Positions 48,820 through 52,103 of a DNA stretch of 64,000 nt are shown here, one piece after another. The stretch lies in NCBI GenBank assembly GCA_019454145.1, contig CP075366.1:1-64000 (forward strand), read 5' to 3'. Source of the DNA: Fimbriimonadaceae bacterium. GTDB taxonomy: Bacteria; Armatimonadota; Fimbriimonadia; Fimbriimonadales; Fimbriimonadaceae. A program made the translations under genes and the position numbers. Position 1 is the stretch's first letter; each line of letters begins with the position of its first letter. The notes beneath the pieces were generated by a model, which did not search any database, was not told the origin of the DNA, and saw only the letters and a program-made list of their open reading frames with translations.

Positions 48820-49287
48820 ATGTCGAACGATACAATGCTTTCTCAAGAAGGATTTGACAAGCTTAAAAAGGAGCTTGAATTCCTGAAAGGTCACGAAAGA
48901 CAACGCATCGCGGATAACATTCGCGAGGCGAAGTCGCATGGTGATTTGCGTGAAAACGCTATGTATCACGAAGCAAAGTTAAACCAAACACGCCTCGAAT
49001 CGCGCATCGCCGAGCTTGAGCGGATTGTTCTGCATGCACAAATCGTTGAAGCAAAAGCAACGGATGGAACCGCGAGCCTTGGCTCAAAGATTTCCTTAGA
49101 AGATTTGGAATGGGGCGACAAGATGAACATCACTTTAGTCGGAGCGTTTGAAGCCGACCCAGCAAACGATTTGATCTCCGTTGCGTCACCTATGGGAACG
49201 GCATTACTCGAAAGATCAGAAGGCGACACAATTGAAGTCGAAACGCCTGGTGGTTTGCAAAAGTATAAGATTTTGTCAATAAAATAA
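48820..49287 (+). CDS. greA: Transcription elongation factor GreA
   Basis: GreA stimulates RNA cleavage by backtracked RNA polymerase. The 155-residue protein has the N-terminal coiled coil (LSQEGFDKLKKELEFLKG, HGDLRENAMYHEAK with the acidic tip) and the C-terminal FKBP-like SVASPMGTALLERSEGD. A small lipoprotein gene follows after 3 nt. Confidence 0.96.
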   Translation: MSNDTMLSQEGFDKLKKELEFLKGHERQRIADNIREAKSHGDLRENAMYHEAKLNQTRLESRIAELERIVLHAQIVEAKATDGTASLGSKISLEDLEWGDKMNITLVGAFEADPANDLISVASPMGTALLERSEGDTIEVETPGGLQKYKILSIK

Positions 49288-49290
49288 ACA

Positions 49291-49953
49291 ATGAAGCCGC
49301 GCGTTGCTCGCTTAATTCTCCTTGTTCCGATGGTGTTCATCGTCGGTTGTGATGCGTCGCAATTCACGGTCAACGGAGTCCAAACCGAAACCGTCACCGC
49401 TGACGACATCACCATTGATAGCGATGCGCTGACGAGCAATTTGGCCCTGATGACCCCGCAATCTTCGGTTCGACTTGGTCAAAAATTGGGAGCCTCGTTG
49501 ATTGGCGGATTCCGAAAGCCAGATCGAGCCGTGCTTCTCAAAGAACTCCCCCCGGGATTTGGCAGTGGGTTCAATTCTGTGGGTTGGGAATCACCAGAAA
49601 GAACGGTTTCGATGGTTGGTCGAGAAGATGACCTCGTCCTCGCGCTGGATGCCTGGAATTCGATTTCGCAGGAAAAGCATGACGATATCCTCACCCGTTA
49701 CACCTTTGTGTACGGTGAACCGATGAATAAAATCGAAGGTCGAACCGCGAAGTACGCTTTCTGGAACAGTGGATCTGTGAGGTTGATGATCTGCACTGTT
49801 CCTGAAACCAAGGACACTTATACTGTGACTACGGTTCTTGGACTTGCTACCCTGATGGATCGTCTGAGAATGAACGTCGATTCTGCTCAACGCGACGTTG
49901 CCGCCGCAGACGAAATGGTTAAAACTGCCACTGCCGAAGCTCCGGCGAAATAG
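49291..49953 (+). CDS. Putative lipoprotein of unknown function
   Basis: A leader VARLILLVPMVFIVGC (lipobox IVGC, Cys at about 20) is followed by a mixed alpha/beta domain of about 175 residues (LGASLIGGFRKPDRAVLLKE, YTFVYGEPMNKIEG) and a helical Ala-rich tail (DEMVKTATAEAPAK). No family is recognised. It lies 3 nt after greA and is probably co-transcribed. Confidence 0.78.
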   Translation: MKPRVARLILLVPMVFIVGCDASQFTVNGVQTETVTADDITIDSDALTSNLALMTPQSSVRLGQKLGASLIGGFRKPDRAVLLKELPPGFGSGFNSVGWESPERTVSMVGREDDLVLALDAWNSISQEKHDDILTRYTFVYGEPMNKIEGRTAKYAFWNSGSVRLMICTVPETKDTYTVTTVLGLATLMDRLRMNVDSAQRDVAAADEMVKTATAEAPAK

Positions 49954-50055
49954 TTAAATTTCACTGCAACTGACTTTCGCCGAAGGACGTCTGATTAATT
50001 GTCGGTTGGCTTGCCAAGCGATAAATCTAAAAACCAAAGGAGGTGGTGCCACACG

Positions 50056-50100
50056 ATGGATAACCATAAACGGAACCACCTGGGAGAGTACGGGTTTTAG
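50056..50100 (+). CDS. 14-codon ORF with a near-perfect Shine-Dalgarno
   Basis: An ATG follows AAAGGAGGTGG by nine bases and opens MDNHKRNHLGEYGF, then TAG. The SD is stronger than at almost every annotated gene here. The SD's own stem can be sequestered by ACCACCT, which lies within the ORF. It may be a leader peptide or a small regulatory peptide. It may also be a chance ORF within a structured RNA. Confidence 0.35.
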   Translation: MDNHKRNHLGEYGF

Positions 50101-50157
50101 CGAACCCAACGACTCGTTGATCGGGCTTCGTCATGAACTTGATCTCCTGGGTGCATA

Positions 50158-50192
50158 AAAAATCCCCGACCATCTCAGGTCGGGGTTCTTAA
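50158..50192. terminator. Bidirectional terminator
   Basis: CCCCGACC-ATCTCA-GGTCGGGG with TTCTT on the right and AAAAAA on the left, suited to stop transcription from both strands between the RNA candidate and the minus-strand gene. Confidence 0.85.
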
Positions 50193-50205: not shown

Positions 50206-50778
50206 TTAATCTATGTAGTCCCAGAAATTAACTCGTCGCACCCAGCTATTACTCTGTAGAGTGCAATTCTTAGGGGAGCATTTGTATTGCGTAGCGATTG
50301 ATACATTTGATTGGGTGAGAGGCGATCCGTGCAGGGCAATTTGAATGCCAGTATTGGAAGCTCGCTCCAGTCTGAGCCTGATGAGTTGGTAAGGTTTTTC
50401 TGCTCCGTCGTACGTTTCAAACAGAATTATCTTCTTTTGAGAATTACCAAGAATTCTGTTGGCCAGTTCATAGTCAAGAATCCTACCAGCGGAGCAATCT
50501 CCCAAGAGAGATTTGATTTCAGCTGACCATTCAAAGGTGAAAGGCCCCGGCGACGTAACCGGACAGAATTCGAGAGTCATATCTTTAAACGGTGCGTTCA
50601 AATCTGCCGGTACAACTACTCCACCAGTTCTGGTCAGCATTATTAGCGATACCTCCTCTGGACGCGAAAACTTTAGGATTGGCAAAAGAGTCAACCCAAA
50701 CAGTCCGGTCAGAAAGAGCAGAACAAGAGTGATCCTAAAAATAGTTCGAAGCCAATGATTTTGTTTTCGAACAATCAT
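50206..50778 (-). CDS. Single-pass membrane hypothetical protein
   Basis: The 190-residue protein has one membrane helix near the start (about 11-33, IFRITLVLLFLTGLFGLTLL) and a soluble domain of about 155 residues outside or inside the membrane (EFCPVTSPGPFTFEWSAEIK, ILFETYDGAEKPYQLIRLRL). Its cysteines (CPV, DCSAG, YKCSPKNC) hint at an exported disulphide-bonded domain. No family is recognised. It is 23 nt downstream of the heme/copper protein gene on the same strand. Confidence 0.72.
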   Translation of the reverse strand: MIVRKQNHWLRTIFRITLVLLFLTGLFGLTLLPILKFSRPEEVSLIMLTRTGGVVVPADLNAPFKDMTLEFCPVTSPGPFTFEWSAEIKSLLGDCSAGRILDYELANRILGNSQKKIILFETYDGAEKPYQLIRLRLERASNTGIQIALHGSPLTQSNVSIATQYKCSPKNCTLQSNSWVRRVNFWDYID

Positions 50779-50801: not shown

Positions 50802-52103
50802 TTAGTCTCGTAGAACCGTTATTCCAGCGACTAACAGCATCATTTCGTCCGTGGTTTCTTCGCCCCAACGCACCAATTTTGGAGGATCGTGGGGTTGGAA
50901 CGGATTATCAACCGAATTATCGTATTCGGCCTCAAGCCGCAACTTGCTACCTGCTGGCAGAATCTCTGGCGTTTTCAAGTTGTAGATGAGTTGCCAGTTG
51001 AAATCCCAATCTTTGACTTCGATGAGCACCTTTTCTTTGCCGTCCGGATAGATAGCCGTGGCTTTCATTTCTCGACCGAGCAAGTGCATGTGTGGCATCA
51101 GCGAATAGATTTTTATTTTTGCGGGAATCGGAATTTCTGACCTGAACTTCTGTCCTGCTTTGCCTGGAACAATTCGAATGAACGGATTAGGAATGAACTT
51201 GACGTCAACCTGCTCCTTGGGCACGCCTTGGTTCAAATAGACCGCAACCTTTGTTTGATCCTTCTCAGGCTTTCCGCTTTTGTTGTAGTGGACTTGCAGA
51301 ATAATATCGGTGCCTGGTTCGATCAACATTCCCGCGTGGTCGGGAAGCCGAGATTGCTTCGCACCTGGCGCCCACCCACCTAGAGAACCATCTGGATTGA
51401 AGCCAACTCCGCCGCCAGTTGTTTTGTATCCTGCCCGTTTGTCGCCGCGTGATTGAACTAATTTTTTGCCTTGTCCAGATTTATCCAAGAAAGCAATCAC
51501 GTGATGCACGATTCGCTTGTTGCCTGGCTCTACGTCAATCGCGGAAATATATGTCGGTTTGGTGATGTTTGGGGTGATGACGAAGTTCCAGTATTCATCG
51601 CTTCCATCTGCCCCGAGCTCGAATTCATAAGGCATTTCCAGGAGCATGTCTGGTTTACCGAGGGCCCAGCCCTCAGGGAAAGTCGGAGTTACAGGCTCTT
51701 TTGACTTGTCACCTCTAGGTGCGCCTGCATCTGCCCATGCACTCAAAAGTGTGATTTGCTCGTCGCTGAGGTGGGTGTCATCCAAAAACTTGACTTCACC
51801 TGGGACTGCCTTCCAGGGCGGCATTCGTTTTTTGGAAGTCGCAAGAGCGATCATATCCGAGTATCGTTTGGCGTTCTCATAACCTATGAGAGAGAACGGA
51901 GCCGATTGCCCGGGCCGGTGGCATTTCACACAACTGTTATTGAGAATCGGCGCAACGTGCTCAGCGTAAGTCACAGCTTTGATGCCAGCCGGAGGCGTTT
52001 GCGGTGCTGGTTTTACTGAAGGATTAGGGTGAAAAAATACACCGAGTGCCAAGATTCCGATAGCTGGTGTAAATAGGATGGGCCACTTTTGGTTAAATTT
52101 CAT
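50802..52103 (-). CDS. Cytochrome c-containing copper type II ascorbate-dependent monooxygenase-like protein
   Basis: A signal anchor precedes a heme c motif (CVKCH, residues 58-62) in a short cytochrome domain (about 45-130). A copper type II monooxygenase-like pair of domains follows. Copper-ligand candidates are visible: RIVHHVIAF, ILQVHYNKSG, and PHMHLLGREMKATAIY with EETTDEMML at the C-terminus. These match the peptidylglycine-monooxygenase-like fold. The substrate is unknown. A heme fused to this fold recurs in Planctomycetes/Acidobacteria-type genomes and may supply electrons directly. Confidence 0.82.
   Translation of the reverse strand: MKFNQKWPILFTPAIGILALGVFFHPNPSVKPAPQTPPAGIKAVTYAEHVAPILNNSCVKCHRPGQSAPFSLIGYENAKRYSDMIALATSKKRMPPWKAVPGEVKFLDDTHLSDEQITLLSAWADAGAPRGDKSKEPVTPTFPEGWALGKPDMLLEMPYEFELGADGSDEYWNFVITPNITKPTYISAIDVEPGNKRIVHHVIAFLDKSGQGKKLVQSRGDKRAGYKTTGGGVGFNPDGSLGGWAPGAKQSRLPDHAGMLIEPGTDIILQVHYNKSGKPEKDQTKVAVYLNQGVPKEQVDVKFIPNPFIRIVPGKAGQKFRSEIPIPAKIKIYSLMPHMHLLGREMKATAIYPDGKEKVLIEVKDWDFNWQLIYNLKTPEILPAGSKLRLEAEYDNSVDNPFQPHDPPKLVRWGEETTDEMMLLVAGITVLRD

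Follow-up and report, generated by a model that had tools for sequence, protein, structure and literature searches.

A real RNA family spans the phylum Armatimonadota, usually with one copy per genome, and its best reading, to which we assign a probability of about 0.45, is a stand-alone structured RNA that would be gated by translation of a tiny open reading frame (ORF) and act in trans. The copy described here occupies positions 50028-50191 on the plus strand of the window, i.e. the whole 64,000-nucleotide stretch of Fimbriimonadaceae DNA that was analysed. The original prediction of a structured RNA with a genuine Shine-Dalgarno (SD) sequence and a tiny ORF, designed like a leader peptide or riboregulator and with no target in cis, is strongly supported by comparison of the copies, and the observation has turned out to be larger than first described. 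The earlier account had overlooked an ECF-type promoter, the main hairpin (P1), a UA/NAU internal loop, a second SD-like site and the phylum-wide distribution.

In the window, a candidate ECF-sigma-type promoter (49965-49991) consists of a -35 element TGCAAC (49965-49970), a 17-nt spacer and a -10 element CGTC (49988-49991). It is followed by the initiating Shine-Dalgarno sequence SD1, AAAGGAGGTGGTG (50036-50048), which is almost invariant phylum-wide; as predicted, its portion AAAGGAGGTGG (50036-50046) lies exactly 9 bases 5' of the ATG at 50056, which opens a 14-codon ORF, MDNHKRNHLGEYGF, ending in TAG (50056-50100). The second half of this ORF contains the 5' arm of P1, CACCTGGGAGA (50077-50087), which pairs with the 3' arm TCTCCTGGGTG located after the stop codon (50143-50153) and includes an SD-like site, GGGAG (50082-50086), here called SD2. 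Between the arms of P1, comparison of the copies delimits a core hairpin with the 5' strand CGGGTTT-TA-GCGAA (50091-50104), in which the stop UAG spans an invariant internal loop, and the 3' strand TTCGT-CAT-GAACTTG (50127-50141). The short stems and the perfect terminator noticed earlier are also present in the sequence, the latter as an 8-bp stem, CCCCGACC/GGTCGGGG (50164-50185), with a T-rich tail that takes the feature to 50198. The plus strand folds at -71.4 kcal/mol compared to -57.4 kcal/mol in shuffled sequences (z -3.2). No gene on this strand is placed under the control of the RNA, as had been remarked, since the next gene (50206-50778) runs antiparallel.

A DNA search covering 61 related genomes returned homologues from all seven genomes of the same genus and from several of the same family. 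A covariance model built on the Fimbriimonadaceae, the family of the window, found exactly one copy in each of 50 of the 85 genomes of that family, plus a single copy from each of two further families within the order; applied phylum-wide, it gave 27 weak matches in other classes, which had the same layout when examined singly. A second model, built from these weak matches plus two outlying members of the order and including no member of the window's family, recovered the window copy independently (E 2.3e-11). Its matches extend to 127 of 291 Armatimonadota genomes, each with a single copy except for one genome with two; three of the weakest matches (L227-L229 in genomes G175, G271 and G282) were rejected as ordinary gene starts or unrelated sequences. 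In the genome with two copies (L205 and L206 of G133), both start with TTG and the peptide of L206 is divergent. No credible copy was found by model search in approximately 106 genomes outside Armatimonadota, and the sole weak match there (G367) was rejected for want of a matching ORF. Scanning 84,980 genomes for an exact pattern returned 29 records, named as Armatimonadetes/Armatimonadota, Fimbriimonadaceae, Fimbriimonas or Chthonomonas apart from two labelled only "bacterium"; the pattern is specific to the Fimbriimonadales version, and remote versions may exist elsewhere.

Comparison with Rfam, proposed as a check in the original prediction, places the window RNA outside Rfam 15: a cmscan of the window and 38 homologous loci found no family above its gathering threshold other than tRNAs, and the best sub-threshold match on this strand, BSnc120, reached 18.3 bits against a cut-off of 114 bits. 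Identity with 6S RNA (RF00013) or tmRNA (RF00023) was rejected because the locus matches no Rfam family. In the complete genome to which the window belongs (G000), tmRNA is located elsewhere and 6S RNA (RF00013) was not detected. A literature search of incomplete coverage found no published description of such an Armatimonadota RNA.

All 116 copies examined possess a consensus SD, an ORF of 10-14 codons and a downstream hairpin, and SD1 is centred 14.1 ± 1.6 nt before the start codon. The start is ATG in 107 copies and TTG in nine, the automatic choice having been corrected by hand in six of the 116, and the stops are UAG (82), UAA (22) and UGA (12). Shuffling the downstream sequence yields an ORF of 9-14 codons in about 17% of trials per copy. 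The hairpin motif served as a frame-independent anchor for a test of phase: the distance from the ATG to GTTTTA in the hairpin is 32, 35 or 38 nt, i.e. one phase, in 52 of 52 Fimbriimonadales copies, whose relatedness makes the number of independent events smaller than 52, whereas the flanking spacings occur in all phases (SD to ATG 13-20 nt, stop to ATGRA 23-33 nt). Since the start-to-hairpin distance stays in frame while the flanking spacings vary freely, the ORF is, on this comparative evidence, translated and its frame kept open by selection.

Outside Fimbriimonadales the peptide has a weak consensus, M-x-x-S-[QL]-[RQ]-G-[DGE]-x-x-G, with some freedom at third positions, and the Fimbriimonadales form is ..QGGxGF. 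Among the ORFs of 11 codons, the third position is the most variable one in codons 6-8 (0.17/0.77/1.04 bits for R, 0.61/0.17/1.08 for G and 0.63/0.95/1.74 for D/G/E), and synonymous codons are used for R (CGA, CGG and AGA) and for L (TTA and CTA, or CTC in ORFs of other lengths). Constraint acts on the nucleotides themselves at codons 4-5 and at the Fimbriimonadales end GGG TTT TAG, and the constraints on peptide and RNA appear to overlap to the point of being inseparable here. A frameshift or read-through product was considered and rejected, because the lengths after +1 shift, -1 shift or read-through are scattered and no downstream frame is conserved.

The original prediction also named a search for compensatory changes as a check and loss of the stems or of the ORF in relatives as grounds for dismissal; compensatory changes are found in P1, and both stems and ORF are conserved. 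In a structure-blind alignment of 13 sequences, 96% of the pairs in P1 and the core stems are formed, and double-change cells number 22 compared to 9.1 ± 2.7 when shuffled and at most 3 when slid. Compensatory changes in P1 also occur in further alignments, one of them fitted to the model. The long hairpin within P1 carries 5'-GUUU-UA-GC / GY-NAU-GAAC-3', with GTTTTAGC and ATGAAC almost invariant, and its GUUU/GAAC stem gains independent support from other classes, in which the G-C pair is replaced by A-U. In Fimbriimonadales the stop UAG is formed by the UA of the internal loop and the following G; in other classes that keep the core motif, the stop is located 3-9 nt upstream of it. Single-sequence low-energy folds differ in detail, and the structure claimed is confined to P1, the GUUU/GAAC core stem and the neighbouring pairs.

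The core may be a separable module, as suggested by family f19 (L152, L153 and L156; also G183), in which GUUUUAGC/AUGAAC occurs twice, nested, in one hairpin. It is not universal, since some families (f20-f30) are without it. The core-motif pattern has matches in 22 genomes, almost always at this RNA, and a role of the motif as a recurrent cis-element elsewhere was rejected, the remaining two matches (G000:1286900 and G157:1175534) having the look of chance.

When the anti-SD was slid over the copies, a sharp peak of affinity appeared within the ORF for windows ending 7-12 nt before the stop; for those ending 9 nt before it, the mean energy is -9.7 kcal/mol, with values below -5 kcal/mol in 96% of copies. 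An SD2 score of at least 14 is attained by 78% of copies vs. 17% of codon shuffles, and SD2 of the window (GGGAGAG) is weaker than that of other families. The centre of SD2 lies 13.9 ± 2.0 nt from the stop, a distance similar to that of SD1 from the start; since ORF length varies mainly in the first half, this position could reflect the geometry of P1 alone. The GGAG core of P1 is nearly constant in Fimbriimonadales while adjoining pairs covary freely, a hint that it does more than pair. Ensemble folding places SD2 within a closed P1 in 101 of 116 copies.

It had been proposed that the coding sequence occludes its own ribosome binding site, by pairing of AGGTGGT (50041-50047) with ACCACCT (50075-50081). 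This pairing is possible in the window RNA, with an ensemble probability of approximately 0.48, but it is not conserved as a switch: it shows no covariation, the SD side being invariant and none of the seven pairs being compensated on the ORF side, and it breaks outside the genus, for which reasons it was rejected in that role. SD1 is neither specially hidden nor open (unpaired 0.34 vs. 0.29 in shuffled context). The conserved pairing instead joins the second half of the ORF with the 3' part as P1, which would hide SD2, not SD1. In two divergent members of family f22 (L215 and L225), without the core motif, the ORF is followed by ACACCACCT or ACACCTCCTT, which come close to the 16S anti-SD; these could pair with SD1, and occlusion of the SD may apply to that lineage.

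An ECF-type motif (GAAAC-like -35, 17-nt spacer and CGTC, CGTT or CGTA) precedes most Fimbriimonadales copies, 75% of which score at least 9 of 10 vs. 6% of shuffled upstream sequences. In other classes a sigma-70-like TTGACA-N17-TATAAT is present in 84% vs. 5% of shuffles. A terminator follows 94% of the Fimbriimonadales copies and 73% of the remainder, compared to 8-9% of shuffles. The exact ECF consensus pattern has no other strong copies in the window's own genome. The window RNA stands downstream of greA and a lipoprotein gene (48820-49953), the latter encoding a putative lipoprotein of about 220 aa that no Pfam or NCBIfam family matches above cut-off, and most Fimbriimonadaceae keep this gene pair immediately upstream of the RNA. 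Beyond the antiparallel gene, 50802-52103 encodes a protein with weak matches to Cu type II ascorbate-dependent monooxygenase domains, of which one narrowly passes the Pfam cut-off and the other narrowly misses it. In families f35 and f32 the RNA lies on the opposite side of greA, upstream of it; elsewhere it is upstream of genes that, by eye, we take to be mraZ-rsmH (f13) and a kdsB-like gene (17 Fimbriimonadaceae loci). Neighbouring genes differ between classes and no one gene consistently follows the RNA; in the window, as in about half of the Fimbriimonadales copies, the gene that does follow runs antiparallel. Its own promoter and terminator, changing neighbours and antiparallel next gene mark the RNA as a stand-alone gene; to judge from these signals it is a stand-alone transcription unit, with a terminator in most copies.

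With no constant downstream gene, the RNA most likely reports the status of ribosomes or of termination in trans. It follows from the geometry that a ribosome positioned on the stop codon must occupy the 5' arm of P1 together with some of the core, and we propose that the RNA alternates between two states. When no ribosome is present, P1 would be closed, SD2 hidden and the UA/NAU internal-loop motif displayed. A ribosome initiating at SD1 and arriving at the stop would open P1, whereupon its anti-SD could engage SD2 and, from the geometry, its departure may be slowed. The freed 3' arm of P1 and the dismantled core motif would constitute the signal, and a partner, protein or RNA, might recognise either the core motif or the freed arm. 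In Fimbriimonadales an ECF (stress) sigma factor would turn the RNA on, and in most other classes it would be transcribed from a housekeeping-type promoter.

The translated ORF could also mean that the transcript is a messenger for a functional micropeptide, its 10-14 residue product being the active part and the hairpin merely protecting or tuning the mRNA. Retention of the frame and the third-position variation at codons 6-8 of the 11-codon group agree with this, yet the peptide differs between classes, the nucleotide-level constraint falls on codons 4-5 and on the Fimbriimonadales end of the ORF, and the best-conserved parts, SD1 and GUUUUAGC/AUGAAC, lie outside or across the coding frame, so that we regard a micropeptide as rather unlikely. 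The two SD-like sites at matching distances from start and stop (14.1 and 13.9 nt), the lack of a cis target and the ECF-type promoter in Fimbriimonadales would likewise suit an RNA that recruits a ribosome at SD1 and holds it at the stop by SD2, thereby sequestering or marking ribosomes, e.g. under stress. A C after the stop is a weak termination context, and it follows the stop in 75 of 116 copies, but in many of them it belongs to a stem. Moreover, such parking or titration leaves the invariant core internal loop and the covarying P1 unexplained, SD2 is closed in P1 before translation, and a single chromosomal copy would require very high transcript levels; we consider it unlikely.

The positions upstream of greA, mraZ-rsmH and the kdsB-like gene are what would be expected of a cis-acting leader, either attenuator or riboswitch, for the downstream gene. 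This is improbable given the antiparallel orientation of that gene in the window and in about half of Fimbriimonadales, its changing identity between classes, and a terminator that overlaps neither P1 nor any alternative partner seen. The least likely rival, given the frame test, is a protein-binding structural RNA whose ORF is incidental: a protein ligand would fit the invariant UA/NAU internal loop and its duplication in f19, but selection on the frame and the presence of the ORF in 116 of 116 copies make an incidental ORF very unlikely.

In its working, such an RNA would come closest to a leader-peptide RNA lacking a downstream gene, or to a dual-function small RNA in which ORF and structure are merged. 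In dual-function small RNAs, such as Spot 42/SpfP, SgrS/SgrT and RNAIII, the ORF and the regulatory part are usually separate. The Armatimonadota RNA resembles them, as far as its sequence features indicate, in that it is short and independently transcribed, has a promoter and terminator of its own and bears a tiny ORF with an SD, translation of which is indicated by comparison; it differs in that the second half of the ORF is an arm of the main conserved hairpin, and the absence of an Rfam match indicates no sequence relation. With leader-peptide attenuators, e.g. trpL, tnaC and ermCL, it shares a short ORF, and translation of this ORF may choose between RNA structures, of which P1 is the one supported by covariation. 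Unlike them, the transcript is self-contained, without overlap of terminator and antiterminator, and no constant same-strand gene directly downstream was found. At the prfB programmed frameshift site the SD-like sequence precedes CTTT by 3 nt and the stop by six nucleotides (PMC12421855). The RNA resembles it in having an internal SD-like site shortly before the stop and, in Fimbriimonadales, a TTTT that runs into UAG and then C, but the distance of SD2 from the stop is roughly double (centre approximately 14 nt) and no open downstream frame follows a shift.

It is possible, if doubtful, that these RNAs form a new class in which a ribosome determines the shape of the RNA, and hence its trans signal, by initiating at one SD and then being detained by another at the stop codon of an ORF of 10-14 codons. 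The family would then be a sensor of ribosomes or of termination that occurs across one bacterial phylum, and its reading frame would rank among the shortest known to be deeply conserved. An RNA gene distributed across a poorly studied phylum, absent from Rfam and with a frame of 10-14 codons under selection is in itself unusual. If translation sets its structure, the family would offer a natural test of the terminating ribosome as a signal outside the context of leader attenuators, and also of the effect of an SD placed before a stop codon.
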